Assembly (NCBI GenBank): GCA_903851445.1
Contig: CAINOH010000009.1
Span: 87,908-151,907, forward strand
DNA: 64,000 nt
Direction: 5' to 3'
Origin: an uncultured Microcaldota archaeon
GTDB taxonomy: Archaea > Micrarchaeota > Micrarchaeia > Norongarragalinales > CAINOH01
Made by a program: the position numbers and the translations under genes. This document shows, piece after piece, positions 2,247 through 42,149 of the stretch. A model generated the notes under the pieces. That model had not been told where the DNA came from. It made no database searches and saw nothing but the letters and a program-made list of their open reading frames with translations. Within the stretch, counting starts at the first letter, position 1, and the number at the start of each line of letters is the position of its first letter.

Positions 2247-3397
2247 GGCTTCCCATAGGCGTCCTCGATTGCGCCCCTCTCTTCCTTTTCAAGCCCGAAG
2301 CCCTCGGCCTGCGCCTCTGAAAGGTAGGGGAGCACGTCCTTTTTCGCCCGCCTTGACGAGGTGTGGATTATTTTCCCCACTTTCATCCCGGCTGACTTGA
2401 GCGCAGCCCTAGTCCCCCGCGAGGAAGCCATCTTGGAAAGCTTGCTTGGAAATGCGTATTTTGCGAACTTCATGTACTTGCCCTTCTTTGCAAGCGCGGT
2501 GCCCGTAAGCGCAAGCGTCCGCGCGTACTTCCAGAACGAGTAGTCGTTGGTCTTCCGCACGTGGCCAAGGAACATGTCCGAGCGGGAGAGGATGTCAAGG
2601 GCCTTCGCAACCTCGGCCGGGTCCTCGTATTCTATCGGCACGTTCTCGCAAAGCCACAGGAGCATCGTTGATATTTCCTCGTCAACCCCGTCAGCAGCCT
2701 TGAGCGCCTCCAGGTAGTTGTCCGCCTTGAGCGTCCGCCTCACTGCGTCGAACATCCCTGCCTCGCGTTCGCGCACGGATGAGGCGGCCTTGCCGCCGCC
2801 CGACTGCAGGTCAATTAGGGCCGCGCGCATGTCGCCCGAACTTGCCTTTGCAATCTCGTCAACGTATTCGCCTTCTGCCATGCCCTCGGCTTTTGCGATT
2901 TTCTTGAGCGCAGCTGCGATTGACCTTGAGTTGAGCTTCTTGAACTCAACCGGCTTTGTGAGGAATCGCAGGGGCTTGACCGCGTCATCCCACGCGTCGT
3001 TTGCTATGAATATGATTGGCTGGGCGGACTCCCGCGCAAGGGCAGCTAGCGCGGACGAGCTGCCCCGGTCGGATGTGGAGCCAATCTCGTCGATTATGAG
3101 CAGCCGCCTCGAACCGAAAAGCGAGCCGTAGCCAGCTGACGCGCCCAGCACTTCCTTGATGTCAGCTGCTGAGCGCAGCCTCGACGCGTCCGACTCTACG
3201 GTCTCCCAGCCCATCTCCTGCGCAAGGGCCCTTGCAACCGCGGTCTTCCCTGTTCCGGGCGGGCCGTAAAGGAGCAATGGCTTTTCCCGCGTGCCGGACT
3301 CGATGCTTGCAGCCCACTTTTTGATTTCCTGGCGCGGCTCCTCGTTGCCTATGAAGTCGGCAACAATCTTTGGCAGGTGCTTTATCGTCCAGAGCAT
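2243..3397 (-). CDS. rfcL: Replication factor C large subunit
   Basis: A 384-residue AAA+ ATPase. The N-terminus (WTIKHLPK, 'FIGNEE') is typical of archaeal RfcL. Walker A is GPPGTGKT (45-52), and Walker B is LLIIDEIGS with sensor IIFIAND downstream. RfcL with the small subunit loads the PCNA clamp at primer ends. Family members are usually about 450-500 residues with a basic C-terminal tail ending in a PCNA-binding motif. This one stops after the collar domain at YGKP and shows no such motif. The gene stands alone; no small subunit is nearby. Confidence 0.95.
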   Translation of the reverse strand: MLWTIKHLPKIVADFIGNEEPRQEIKKWAASIESGTREKPLLLYGPPGTGKTAVARALAQEMGWETVESDASRLRSAADIKEVLGASAGYGSLFGSRRLLIIDEIGSTSDRGSSSALAALARESAQPIIFIANDAWDDAVKPLRFLTKPVEFKKLNSRSIAAALKKIAKAEGMAEGEYVDEIAKASSGDMRAALIDLQSGGGKAASSVREREAGMFDAVRRTLKADNYLEALKAADGVDEEISTMLLWLCENVPIEYEDPAEVAKALDILSRSDMFLGHVRKTNDYSFWKYARTLALTGTALAKKGKYMKFAKYAFPSKLSKMASSRGTRAALKSAGMKVGKIIHTSSRRAKKDVLPYLSEAQAEGFGLEKEERGAIEDAYGKP

Positions 3398-3513
3398 TTC
3401 AAAGACCTAAATGCGAAAACGGAAAAATGTCCGATAGGATAAGGGTGACGGCAAGGAATAAAAGTAGAAAGAAAATGGGAAAAAACAAAAGGGGATAAAA
3501 GCCGCTTGGAAGC

Positions 3514-10806: not shown

Positions 10807-11007
10807 TTATCTGCTCGCCAGCTTGATGTCCTCGCTTGTGACTGTCTTCCTTCCTGCGTGCTTTGCAAGCTGGACTGCCTTCTGCGAGATGTCGATTGCC
10901 ATGTCCTCAAGCACATCAGCAAGTGCTTCCGAGGCATCCTCGGACACGCGCTCCGCGCCTGCTTTTCGAATAAGGCGCTCTACTGGCGCCAAAGGAACGT
11001 CACCCAT
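10807..11007 (-). CDS. Archaeal histone
   Basis: A 66-residue minimal histone fold. [20 protein letters not shown] forms alpha-1, [27 protein letters not shown] covers alpha-2 and its loop, and [11 protein letters not shown] forms alpha-3. The RKT/RKS DNA-contact loop is intact. It dimerises and wraps DNA. ATG 11007 lies about 27 bp from a TATA-like box at 11030-11039, so the mRNA is probably leaderless. A second histone gene is at 41931. Confidence 0.95.
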
Positions 11008-28147: not shown

Positions 28148-28315
28148 TGCAGCCGCCGGGATTTGAACCCGGGTCTCGAGATTGGCAATCTCGTGTCCTG
28201 TTGCCCGCCAAGCCGAAAGGGAGCATTGGATGCGTTTTGTCCAAAACAGAATTCGGCGGCTCCAGGTTGTCCGGCCAAAGCCCCTGTTGGATTAAGGCCT
28301 CTGGACTACGGCTGC
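28148..28315 (-). tRNA. tRNA-Gly (anticodon GCC) with an intron in the D-loop
   Basis: The 168-nt gene has acceptor stem GCAGCCG/CGGCTGC (discriminator A), D-stem GTCC/GGAC, anticodon arm CGAGA-TTGCCAA-TCTCG (GCC), and T-arm CCGGG-TTCAAAT-CCCGG. About 94 nt separate the two D-stem strands beyond a normal loop; removing them leaves a 74-nt tRNA with a D-loop near AGAGGCAACA. AGGCC near the 5' junction can pair with GGCTT near the 3' junction, compatible with a relaxed bulge-helix-bulge. The exact splice sites are uncertain by a few bases. A CAATTATTC element about 27 bp upstream may be its TATA box. Confidence 0.88.
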
Positions 28316-30731: not shown

Positions 30732-30844
30732 TGGGCCTGGTGGGATTTGAACCCACGAACTTCCAGTTCGCCTAGAACCAAAGTCCTTTCGGGCTTTGGC
30801 GTCATATAAGACTGGCACTCTGGACCAAGCTGAGTTACAGGCCC
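30732..30844 (-). tRNA. tRNA-Ile (anticodon UAU) with an intron after position 37
   Basis: A 113-nt gene: acceptor GGGCCTG/CAGGCCC with discriminator A, D-stem ACTC/GAGT, anticodon stem CCAGT/ACTGG, T-arm GTGGG-TTCAAAT-CCCAC. The loop begins CTTATA, giving UAU at 34-36 whichever side of the ambiguous junction base is chosen. About 37 nt of intron contain a stable hairpin (CCAAAGCCC-GAAA-GGACTTTGG) and CGCC/GGCG pairing at the junctions. Most archaea instead read AUA with an agmatidine-modified CAU tRNA. Confidence 0.88.
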
Positions 30845-38535: not shown

Positions 38536-39804
38536 CTAAAAGTATGCAGAAAGTCGCGTCTGACCCATTATCCTGCTCTTTGCAAGGTAGGAGGATATGG
38601 GGTTCTTCAACCTTGGAGCTAAGTAACCCAAGGCTTCCTTGAGCGTTGCGAACTTCGCATCAGCTCCCTTTCGCAGGGCGTTGCGCGCGTTCTCGCGTAC
38701 CTCCCACACACCCACTGGAATGTCATAGCCTTCATCTATCTCTCGAATTACGAGGACCTTTGCCTGGCGCCCAAGTGCTAGCAGTGCCTCTGCAGCTGCA
38801 AACCGGCCGGCATAGTAGCCGCCGCCCTCTTCCTTTGCGTAGTCGCTCCTGCCTCCAAAGCCCTCGTACTCGTGGGCTATGCTTGCGGTGCTGCCAAAGG
38901 CGTTCCAGGCGGTCCCGGGGGTCCAGCACTCGAACTGCTCGAACTCCCACGTCCCGGGAAGCAGGAGGATTTCGAAGCGGTTGTGCAGGTACTCGCTGGA
39001 GAAGGCCAGTACCTCCGATATGGTTTCGAAATTACGGACCTTGACCAAGTGGTCGTCAGCAACAATCTTGTCAGAGGCTGTGATGCTCCAGCGGGTCGGA
39101 ACCATCTTTTTTCTGTCTTTTTTGCCCAAAAGCCCGGCGGATAGGAGCTTTTGTATGTAATAGGAGCCGAAATCGTGCTCCAAAAGCTCTGAAACCGCCG
39201 TTCGCGCGTCCAAATTCTCTTCCAACAAGGTGCTTGTCTTTTTTGGTATGCTCGGGTTTGAAGTCACGCGTAGCTTGGAAAAGGGTCCGGACGGCCCCAT
39301 CGGCTGGACTACTTCGGAAAAGGAAATCCTGTAAGTGGGAACCTTTGCAAATGATACTTCCATGTCAACCGGGTTCTCCGCAAGAAGCGCGTAAGAGAGT
39401 TCCTCCATCTCGCGAGTGGGCTTTCGCACGCTAGAGCGCTGCATCCCCCGCGCAAAACCTGCACGGAAACTTATGATGTCTTTTATCGGAGTGCCGAACC
39501 AGTTCGAAGGGTCGTCGCACAGGAGCGCATTCTGGCTCGAGATTGCGTCGTCAAAAGACACGAGCGGCCCAGCATAAACTTCAGGATATCCAGCCCGGCC
39601 CACGAACAAGTTAGGCGGTGAAGGACCGAAGATGTCCTTCTTTAGGCTCTGCGCCTTTGGAGCGATCACTTCAATGCGATCAAGTATGGGACACGCACGC
39701 AGGCCGCACAAGAGCCGACCGCCCTTGCACTGCACGCAGAGCCGTCCGTTGTCTGTGAGCTTGCGCATCTGACTTGGACTCTGGGCGGAAAGTGCTATGG
39801 CCAT
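38536..39804 (-). CDS. Nre-family DNA repair protein (NreA/NreB) with PIP motif
   Basis: A 422-residue protein. The N-terminal Cys cluster (LCVQCKGGRLLCGLRACP), LFVGRAGYPEVYAGPLVS, IISFRAGFARGMQ and the central FEILLLPGTWEFEQFECW belong to the archaeal Nre family, implicated in repair of alkylation and crosslink damage with PCNA. The C-terminus QTRLSAYF is a complete PCNA-interacting motif, as known in this family. It is divergent from the AAA+ gene across a 370-bp intergenic region with repeats. Confidence 0.9.
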   Translation of the reverse strand: MAIALSAQSPSQMRKLTDNGRLCVQCKGGRLLCGLRACPILDRIEVIAPKAQSLKKDIFGPSPPNLFVGRAGYPEVYAGPLVSFDDAISSQNALLCDDPSNWFGTPIKDIISFRAGFARGMQRSSVRKPTREMEELSYALLAENPVDMEVSFAKVPTYRISFSEVVQPMGPSGPFSKLRVTSNPSIPKKTSTLLEENLDARTAVSELLEHDFGSYYIQKLLSAGLLGKKDRKKMVPTRWSITASDKIVADDHLVKVRNFETISEVLAFSSEYLHNRFEILLLPGTWEFEQFECWTPGTAWNAFGSTASIAHEYEGFGGRSDYAKEEGGGYYAGRFAAAEALLALGRQAKVLVIREIDEGYDIPVGVWEVRENARNALRKGADAKFATLKEALGYLAPRLKNPISSYLAKSRIMGQTRLSAYF

Positions 39805-39887: not shown

Positions 39888-39913
39888 TGTAGTGCCTAAC
39901 TGTAGTGCCTAAC
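39888..39913 (+). repeat. Perfect 13-bp tandem repeat
   Basis: TGTAGTGCCTAAC occurs twice head to tail with no mismatch (39888-39900 and 39901-39913). It lies about 85 bp upstream of the Nre start and 7 bp before a TATA-like TTTATAAA (39920-39927) reading rightward. It could be a regulator site or a recent slippage duplication. Confidence 0.8.
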
Positions 39914-39986: not shown

Positions 39987-40137
39987 TTGTCTTTTACGTG
40001 TCTCGTATATGTCTCTTAGATGCCTTTTACATCTTGGTTGTGGCTTGTAAATGTCTTTTACAACTATGCAACCGGAAAAACCTTGTAAGAGACTTGCAGT
40101 TCCACTATTTACCAAGGCTTTTAAATCTCCCTTACAA
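39987..40137 (+). repeat. Array of 13-bp iteron-like elements upstream of the AAA+ gene
   Basis: The consensus is close to ATGTCTTTTACAA. Copies start at 39987, 40009, 40020, 40051, 40083 (inverted) and 40125; the 40051 copy is part of a 19-bp element with a 7-bp inverted repeat (TTGTAAA/TTTACAA, 40045-40063). Start-to-start distances are 22, 11, 31, 32 and 42 bp, all near multiples of a 10.5-bp DNA turn. The surrounding 370 bp are much more A+T-rich than the window. The last copy sits just after the TATA box of the AAA+ gene. Origin iterons or an autoregulatory operator are the main options. Confidence 0.7.
40117..40127 (+). promoter_or_regulatory. TATA box of the AAA+ gene
   Basis: GCTTTTAAATC predicts transcription start near 40148, before GTG 40159 and ATG 40174. 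The last array element (40125-40137) overlaps its downstream edge, a position where a bound protein would block initiation. Confidence 0.45.
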
Positions 40138-40173
40138 ACTTTGTCTACGAAAAATCAAGTGGATGTAAAGAAC

Positions 40174-41568
40174 ATGGAAAAGGTCTTTGAGGCAAAGCAG
40201 GCGCTCATGTCCGCGCTGGGCTGGAGCGAGAACCCGTTCGTAAAAGACCTGCGGCTTGAGAACAAGGAAGAGTTCTTGAAGTTCTATTGCCCGTTCGAGT
40301 CCGCAAGCATGCTCAAGAAGCTCGCGTTCGACACCAAGGCGTGCATCCTTTTAGGGCCGAAAGGCGTCGGGAAGACTTCCGCTTTGCACTATGTCATGTA
40401 TTCCCTCCCAAAGGAGGAGTTCGTGGCCTTCTTTTTCAAGCAGCCTCCTGAATCGCTCGACGAGTTCGCAGCCGAGATTGGCGCTGCAAAGCACGGCATC
40501 GTGCACAAGATACGCAGCCTGTTCGCAGGGAAGAAGCCAAAGGGCTCCACCCGTGGCCAGATTGCCGAGCGCGTGAAATATTTTGACAACCGCAAGGTCG
40601 TGTTCTTCATAGACGAGGCGCACCTTTTGCGCAATGCAGACATGTACATGGAATTCAAGTACTTGCTTGACGAGTTGCCGGACTTGCGGATGGTGCTTTG
40701 CGCGCTTTCAAAGGACAGCTTCCCCGACTCGCTCCTGCACATAGTGGGCGAGGGAAGTGTATTCTACCGCAACAAGTTCACCGAAAAGGAGATGCGCGAA
40801 ATCATAGCGCACCGCATTTCCGCCGTCGGCGGGAGCGGACTCGTGCCGTTCGATGCTGAATTCCTCGAGAAAACTTTCACCGAGCAGAACCTGCTCACTC
40901 CGCGCTACGTTTTTGACGAGCTGAACAACTACCTGGCGGACCTTGCGCTTGATGAGAAAAGGATGGACAGACTTCGCGCAAGGAAGCCGAAAGTCGTTTC
41001 GATTTCAGACGAGAGGAGGGCAGAAAACCCCGCGACCGCCTCTGGTGAAAAAAAACCCACAATAATTTCCTCTGACGGCATCGACCTTGAGAAGGAATAC
41101 GAGCACGACACGCTCGTCGCAGACATTATTGCCGAGTCAAGGAACGCACAGCAAAAAAAATCAAACGAAAGGAACATTGTTGACGCTGACGAGGAAGTGG
41201 ATGTCAAGGAAATGGAAGCGTCCGGCGACTCCGGACCAAAAGGCAACGGCCAAACGCTCAGCTTCCTCACCACGATACACGCGGAATGGTGGGTGCAGCT
41301 TTCGCCGTCCCAGCAGCAGATCCTGAGCCTCCTGCTCCCAAGCCAAGCCGGGCTCACGCTTGCACAGATTATGGCAAAGACCAAGCTTTCGCAGAACACC
41401 GCGTTCAACGCGCTCTACCAGCTCCGAGGCGACGACAAGGCGGAGATTGCCCGGAAGTCGGAAGTGCCTTTCCCGCTCATCAGCGTAAAGAAGCAGGTTG
41501 TCGGAAAGAAGAAGCGCAACATCTACTTTGCGAATGAGAAAATCCGGAACATTTTCACGACGAACTGA
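40174..41568 (+). CDS. AAA+ ATPase with C-terminal winged helix (ExeA/Orc1-like)
   Basis: A 464-residue protein from ATG 40174; the open frame reaches back to 40051 but crosses the repeat array and promoter. LGWSENPFVKD at the N-terminus, Walker A GPKGVGKTS, Walker B VVFFIDEAHLL and an AAA lid (about 200-260) recall ExeA/GspA-type and Orc1/Cdc6 ATPases. An acidic, disordered linker (about 285-375) leads to a winged helix (PSQQQILSLLLPSQAGLTLAQIM... near 400-460). It could be a DNA-bound initiator or regulator acting at the adjacent repeats (inference). It is not a clear Cdc6. Confidence 0.72.
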   Translation: MEKVFEAKQALMSALGWSENPFVKDLRLENKEEFLKFYCPFESASMLKKLAFDTKACILLGPKGVGKTSALHYVMYSLPKEEFVAFFFKQPPESLDEFAAEIGAAKHGIVHKIRSLFAGKKPKGSTRGQIAERVKYFDNRKVVFFIDEAHLLRNADMYMEFKYLLDELPDLRMVLCALSKDSFPDSLLHIVGEGSVFYRNKFTEKEMREIIAHRISAVGGSGLVPFDAEFLEKTFTEQNLLTPRYVFDELNNYLADLALDEKRMDRLRARKPKVVSISDERRAENPATASGEKKPTIISSDGIDLEKEYEHDTLVADIIAESRNAQQKKSNERNIVDADEEVDVKEMEASGDSGPKGNGQTLSFLTTIHAEWWVQLSPSQQQILSLLLPSQAGLTLAQIMAKTKLSQNTAFNALYQLRGDDKAEIARKSEVPFPLISVKKQVVGKKKRNIYFANEKIRNIFTTN

Positions 41569-41589: not shown

Positions 41590-41787
41590 ATGGATATAGG
41601 CCTGGATGAGTTCCTTGAACTTGCGGATGCGAACCGCCGCGGCCAAAAGGCCCGCGTAGGAGAACTGCCGCTCGGGCAGGTCTATGCGATGCACGCGCAC
41701 TGCACCTCGTCGCTGAAGTTCTCGGTTGTTGCAGGCGAGGCCATTGTCGCAATCGACGGCCTTGCAGCGGCATTAAAATCATATTAG
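41590..41787 (+). CDS. Small protein, unknown
   Basis: A 65-residue protein from ATG 41590, with GGTGAT five bases upstream; GTG 41581 is an alternative start. It opens with a helix (MDIGLDEFLELADANRRG), then beta-like strands (GQVYAMHAHC, SLKFSVVAGEAIVAIDG). Not recognised. It starts about 20 bp after the AAA+ gene and is likely co-transcribed. Confidence 0.5.
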   Translation: MDIGLDEFLELADANRRGQKARVGELPLGQVYAMHAHCTSSLKFSVVAGEAIVAIDGLAAALKSY

Positions 41788-41930: not shown

Positions 41931-42149
41931 ATGATAAGAGGTTCCTTTTCGCTGTTCGACATGGACAGCATAATCCGCAAGTCCGGCGCGGAGCGGGTCG
42001 GCGAGGACGCGAGCATCAAGCTCTCCGAAAAGCTGGAGGATACCGGAAAGGACATACTCCTCCGCGCGAAGCAGCTTTCCTACCACGCTGGCCGCAAGAG
42101 CATCACGCGCGAGGACATAATGCTTGCGGCGATGCATGTGCGCTCGTAA
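41931..42149 (+). CDS. Archaeal histone (second copy)
   Basis: A 72-residue histone from ATG 41931 with GGGGGG upstream. FSLFDMDSIIRKSGAERVGEDA forms the first helix, ILLRAKQLSYHAGRKS the second helix and loop, and ITREDIMLAAMHVRS the third. Relative to the histone at 10807 it has an N-terminal extension (MIRGSFS) and a divergent helix 2, so the two may form heterodimers. It lies in an operon-like run from the AAA+ ATPase to ribK. Confidence 0.93.
   Translation: MIRGSFSLFDMDSIIRKSGAERVGEDASIKLSEKLEDTGKDILLRAKQLSYHAGRKSITREDIMLAAMHVRS

Follow-up and report, generated by a model that had tools for sequence, protein, structure and literature searches.

A conserved, helically phased repeat array in the promoter of a predicted Orc1-like AAA+ ATPase gene of Micrarchaeota, a probable autoregulatory operator

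Short repeats spaced at nearly whole turns of DNA lie upstream of an AAA+ ATPase gene in an uncultured Micrarchaeota archaeon, and raise the question of whether they mark a replication origin, an operator or another nucleoprotein assembly, and which protein they serve. The window (the whole stretch of 64,000 nucleotides analysed, G000:C9:87908-151907) belongs to a 1.09-Mb assembly, G000, of 1,094,458 bases in 25 contigs. A sequence-only reading of the window had offered two functions, a replication origin or an autoregulatory nucleoprotein complex. The second is supported by the present analysis and the first is not. We consider it most probable (roughly 60%) that the repeats serve an ATPase-histone gene pair as an operator array, phased with the DNA helix and placed in its promoter, with the ATPase itself as the likeliest ligand and regulator of its own synthesis.

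The repeats lie in an A+T-rich intergenic region (40.7% G+C, versus 55.1% for the window), flanked by Nre (Pfam E = 3e-85), the AAA+ protein with a C-terminal HTH and a histone-fold protein, as the sequence-only reading had proposed. The features of the locus are as follows.

38536-39804 (minus strand): Nre (archaeal DNA repair), a divergently oriented neighbour on which the array does not depend
39989-40062 (plus strand): array core, six direct units of about 11 bp, conserved in orthologous promoters
39989, 40000, 40011, 40022, 40042 (degenerate) and 40053 (plus strand): G positions of the core units
40083-40095 (minus strand): inverted unit, AAGTCTCTTACAA
40116-40137 (plus strand): a pair of degenerate units (40116 and 40127) with a spacing of 11 bp
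40119-40126 (plus strand): predicted TATA box of the ATPase gene, TTTTAAAT, assigned from its sequence and from the unit-TATA register in 22 promoters
40159-41568 (plus strand): AAA+ ATPase with a C-terminal winged helix and a predicted Orc1-like fold; start at GTG 40159 or ATG 40174
41590-41787 (plus strand): small ORF between the ATPase and histone genes, present in few relatives only (similar in L004 and L016)
41931-42149 (plus strand): small divergent histone-fold gene, the constant downstream neighbour of the ATPase gene

The longest ORF would start the ATPase at ATG 40051, a position inside the array that lacks support from the orthologues, and this start was rejected.

Six copies of the motif ATGTCTTTTACAA with 0-3 mismatches start at 39987, 40009, 40020, 40051, 40083 (inverted) and 40125, with the start-to-start spacings of 22, 11, 31, 32 and 42 bp described previously. 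Two degenerate copies had escaped notice, with their G at 40000 and 40042, and their addition turns the motif series into a direct repeat of about 11 bp with the consensus TGTCTTTTACA. Matched over 44 bp to a tandem of four consensus units, the array reaches a score of 37, whereas 1000 first-order Markov resamplings of the intergenic sequence never exceeded 27; the self-match at lag 11 is 31 (resampling maximum 27). The array exceeds chance, since neither observed score was reached in any of the 1000 resamplings. When all 1,094,458 bases of the assembly were scanned with a unit model derived from relatives, with G000 left out, the array scored 37.7 and the next-best place 14.7. The motif on its own is not rare, with 31 genomic matches at ≤2 mismatches, but the cluster is unique to this site. 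The original observation is thus confirmed, and is stronger than first described. The degenerate unit at 40116 overlaps the TATA box and that at 40127 lies just after it; units are similarly placed on and after the TATA box in L005, L017, L018 and L019, where they match the consensus better than in the window.

Orthologues of the ATPase, 51–57% identical over the alignment, were found in 22 genomes of one Micrarchaeota order, G000 included, and the four nearest public orthologues are labelled Candidatus Micrarchaeota. In a sample of the phylum (295 genomes), matches outside the order were weak, restricted to the AAA+ domain and seen in four class-level genomes only; no 11-bp array was found at distant AAA+ homologues from outside the order. 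By sequence comparison, the ATPase gene is lineage-specific and confined to one order. The repeats, whose conservation in related genomes had been proposed as a check, are indeed conserved: the 22 usable upstream regions contain 92 forward units (2.3 expected) and 14 reverse units (14 of 106), a density about 60 times that in the rest of those loci. Pairwise distances between units fall almost solely at 11, 20–22, 30–34, 41–44, 52–55, 62–65, 72–77, 82–87, 95–98 and 105–109 bp. The best period of 10.65–10.7 bp gives a resultant of 0.84, which remains 0.81 after removal of adjacent copies (maximum 0.36 in 2000 random placements) and 0.79 for distances above 40 bp (0.48 in random placements). Since this period is near the helical repeat of B-DNA and persists over about 10 turns, the phasing is genuine and has been maintained by selection, and the near-whole-turn spacing noted in one genome holds across 22 promoters. 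A few genomes, namely L003, L012 and L014, have weak arrays. In L004 (G018:C88) the array is mostly inverted, with six reverse and two forward units, unlike in all other relatives.

The units are also in register with the promoter. Their distances to the TATA box share a common phase (R = 0.85 at 10.65 bp, n = 71, 22 promoters), a result weakened by the choice of TATA boxes by eye where several candidates were possible. A unit recurs 34–35 bp upstream of the TATA box, and in several genomes one unit lies on the TATA box and another 11 bp beyond. The array is kept in L003, L006, L008, L021 and L022, which do not have Nre as their adjacent divergent gene. In the relatives, tandem pairs that match exactly or with 1 mismatch are located upstream of the ATPase gene; tandem pairs with two mismatches elsewhere in these genomes are absent or few, at the level of control patterns. 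The array therefore belongs to the ATPase promoter, and is attached neither to Nre nor to the genome at large. In seven genomes of the order without a detectable ATPase gene, some of them incomplete, no tandem pairs above the control level were found; as far as can be seen, the array and the ATPase gene have the same distribution. The locus thus has what an autoregulated promoter would be expected to have, several conserved sites that go with the promoter of the gene itself. Conservation, helical phasing, confinement to a single promoter and register with the TATA box of that promoter all support the proposed autoregulatory nucleoprotein complex.

Several further matches were considered. Apparent second arrays in G003 and G026 are merely two-mismatch matches within coding sequence, and downstream of the ATPase gene in G025 two identical two-mismatch matches occur with no surrounding array. 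Ten viral contigs have one exact tandem pair; none of the viral contigs searched encodes a relative. An inverted unit, AGGTCTTTTACGA, at 40238-40250 of the window (minus strand) lies in coding sequence, over the codons for the invariant VKDLR motif of the ATPase, an overlap that may be a coincidence. Another element, AATAGTGGAA/TTCCACTATT, at 40100-40109 of the window (minus strand), lies between the array and the TATA box in several relatives. It is also found upstream of the main orc1 gene (G000:C15:44595, L032 and L036), has eight exact copies in the genome and resembles half of an ORB dyad. In L007, L009, L010 and L013, leaders of about 110–185 nt with possible hairpins separate the TATA box from the ATPase start. 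A search of eight orthologous loci against Rfam gave no match, and so the long leaders in genus g9 correspond to no known RNA. A perfect 13-bp tandem duplication, TGTAGTGCCTAAC, is located in the Nre leader region at 39888-39913.

The ATPase has Walker A, Walker B and lid regions and a C-terminal winged helix; Pfam assigns AAA_22 and, weakly, an IclR-type HTH. No named NCBIfam family was assigned to it, no Orc1/Cdc6 match was obtained among the 22 orthologues, and a sequence search of the PDB gave no significant relative. In Foldseek searches with AlphaFold models, the best match of the window ATPase is a chain of the yeast ORC-Cdc6 complex (E = 3e-8), and that of a shorter orthologue is Aeropyrum Orc1 with DNA (E = 6e-10). 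The ORC/Cdc6 alignments span both domains, with TM-scores of just 0.3–0.4 because the domain placement differs. Lower-ranked matches include clamp loaders, RuvB, plant NLRs and a MalT-system structure (8bob). The models thus suggest an AAA+ domain and a C-terminal winged helix in the Orc1 arrangement, with extra helices predicted between strands 2 and 3, a candidate counterpart of the DNA-contacting motif specific to initiators.

However, this resemblance in fold does not extend to sequence. The Orc1/Cdc6 model TIGR02928 identifies two genuine Orc1/Cdc6 genes in G000 (C15:43360-44472 and C9:250222-251256) and does not find the ATPase gene above the cut-off. Full-length similarity to the Orc1/Cdc6 proteins of these genomes was not seen either, as hhalign aligned only the Walker A-Walker B region (84 columns). 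By these sequence tests the ATPase is not an Orc1/Cdc6, and its earlier description as initiator-like appears apt for the predicted fold but not for family membership. The window also contains, at 2798-3400 (minus strand), a second AAA+ gene resembling the RFC small subunit (54 bits), the canonical one being at G000:C9:58254.

A small histone-fold gene follows the ATPase gene on the same strand in 22 of 23 loci; in the exception, L017, the sequence ends 178 bases past the ATPase gene. The gap between the two genes usually has no TATA-like site, consistent with a possible common transcript, although gaps reach about 540 bp, and in some genomes the histone gene may be transcribed from a separate promoter. 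The main histone gene of the genome, at 10816-10998 of the window (minus strand), scores much higher than the ATPase-linked one, which is a second, divergent histone of this genome.

The mechanism considered most likely is as follows. One protein unit would bind per helical turn, with all units on one face of the DNA and in register with the TATA box, and occupancy of the array would help or block TBP/TFB. The ATPase would most likely bind the units via its winged helix and assemble cooperatively via its AAA+ domains. The upstream units could nucleate such a complex, while those on or just after the TATA box could block TBP or the polymerase. The ATPase-histone transcription unit would thereby be autoregulated.

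The proposal that the ATPase is the ligand was explored by comparing variation in the units with variation in the protein. The second base of the unit varies (GTC or GCC). In a post hoc analysis of 21 genomes and 168 protein columns, the column most associated with this base corresponds to the residue that begins the predicted recognition helix. Where this residue is Glu (G001, G003 and G025), all 11 of 11 units have C; in the remaining genomes it is Gln or Met and the units mostly have T, except that L011 and L012 have Gln yet mostly C. On the tree, the association between Gln-to-Glu and T-to-C requires three changes, at least two of which are forced by well-supported branches. The exact P-value for these genomes is 0.0008, with 0.006 within the recognition helix and 0.22 over all 168 columns, so that self-binding is likely rather than proven. 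The tracking of T-to-C by Gln-to-Glu thus supports binding by the ATPase only suggestively.

The same operator could instead be read by another protein, such as a winged-helix or ribbon-helix-helix factor or the histone-fold protein of the operon. The conservation, period and TATA register name no ligand, a unit of 11 bp would fit a small protein that binds DNA and is tight for a full-length Orc1-type protein, and the histone-fold gene is always present as well. Histone folds, however, are usually not sequence-specific. An array found solely at the ATPase gene, in the genomes that have this gene, is what is expected of a self-regulator, and the recognition helix that covaries with the unit is that of the ATPase; another ligand is therefore possible but doubtful. 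Phased T-tracts that bend the DNA intrinsically, in which case no specific protein need be involved, would account for the TTTT in many units and for a period near the helical repeat. Many units, however, contain CTCTTA, CACTTA or CCCTTA in place of a T4 tract, copies found by offset alone prefer G, C and A outside the tract (0.59, 0.64 and 0.73), and the units are strongly directional (92 versus 14); curvature is the least credible explanation.

A replication origin, with the ATPase as an extra initiator and the units as iterons beside its own gene, is suggested by the Orc1-like fold and by the position of the phased repeats, which lie beside the ATPase gene in an A+T-rich gap. Archaeal origins have ORB boxes in an A+T-rich gap next to orc1/cdc6, a layout that the locus resembles. 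The sequence-only reading had proposed GC skew as a check on this idea, and no switch was found at the array in the three genomes analysed. The array ranks 41 of 77 in G000 and 11 of 24 in G003. G008 has a clear skew minimum at 63.5 kb, only 12 kb from the array, but in a different A+T-rich gap. ORB-type patterns, including mini-ORB boxes, were not found at the array, and the unit TGTCTTTTACA is unlike ORB. With no skew switch, two genuine Orc1/Cdc6 genes elsewhere in G000 and no ORB-like sites, an origin at the array is unlikely; the TATA register is not expected of an origin, and the ATPase lies outside Orc1/Cdc6 by sequence. We regard the origin as quite improbable. An ORB-like sequence, GGAAAGAAAGGGGTTTT, upstream of the C15 Orc1 gene was discarded, as it is not conserved in six class-level Orc1 loci. 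The G008 minimum (L174:2000-3900, corresponding to G008:C1:62000-63900) is sharp, lies inside a long gap of 32–40% G+C with dispersed AAATCTGCCTACTTT-like repeats, and is a candidate replication origin of that genus. Skew extremes lie beside the same large gene in G008 (64 kb) and in G000 (356 kb), but they have opposite polarity, and a link between them was rejected for that reason.

The layout also recalls plasmid partition. In plasmid R1, direct repeats of 11 bp precede the ATPase gene, ParR requires two of them or more, and the operon is autoregulated (PMC9426499 and references therein); these parC-parM-parR repeats are both operator and centromere (PMC9426499). Here too, direct repeats of about 11 bp precede an NTPase gene, a small DNA-binding protein is encoded next, and the ATPase-histone pair is conserved. 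A centromere-like site doubling as an operator is nevertheless improbable. Of the components of type II partition (ParMRC), the upstream direct repeats are present, but the actin-like ParM and the ribbon-helix-helix adaptor ParR have no counterpart: the ATPase is an AAA+ protein rather than an actin-like, tubulin-like or ParA-like one, and the small protein has a histone fold. Moreover, the genes here are chromosomal, and the ATPase gene is confined to one order. By analogy with parC-parM-parR, but with Orc and histone parts, an Orc1-like AAA+ protein might polymerise at one subunit per turn with its histone-fold partner, the array serving as both operator and segregation or chromatin-nucleation site. 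Such a chromosomal nucleoprotein organiser is a speculative reading to which we assign a low probability.

For the preferred reading, an operator bound by the ATPase, the closest functional precedent is Orc1-2 of Sulfolobus/Saccharolobus, a non-initiator Orc1 that regulates transcription upon DNA damage and is thought to bind its own promoter (PMC9738581). Like the ATPase, Orc1-2 combines AAA+ and winged-helix domains in an Orc1 fold and is encoded beside genuine Orc1/Cdc6 genes. It differs in binding another motif, ANTTTC, in many promoters, while the array here consists of many phased units at one promoter, and the ATPase lacks recognisable Orc1 sequence membership. ANTTTC, the element expected of a DNA-damage regulator of the Orc1-2 type, is absent from either strand of 39987-40140. 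Another parallel is offered by bacterial activators. MalT and related STAND-ATPase activators, in which an ATPase is joined to an HTH, act at bacterial sigma-70 promoters. In both cases self-assembly of an ATPase-HTH protein would be expected on a set of oriented sites close to the promoter, but MalT has another HTH class and a large sensor domain absent from the ATPase here.

Little is known of regulators and their sites in DPANN archaea, and a search of the literature on Micrarchaeota Cdc6 and phased archaeal promoter repeats yielded nothing on this locus. The array is a cis-element that can be read by comparison alone in 22 diverged promoters, including its unit, orientation, period, TATA register and probable ligand. 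If correct, the proposed self-regulation would be the second example, distinct in sequence, of transcription regulation by an Orc1-fold protein. The pairing of an Orc-like ATPase with a dedicated histone gene bears on the recruitment of replication and chromatin proteins to gene control.

Elsewhere in the window, Rfam gives tRNA matches at 30732-30844 and 28148-28204 (both minus strand) that ARAGORN does not report; the 113-nt match at 30732-30844 probably holds an intron.
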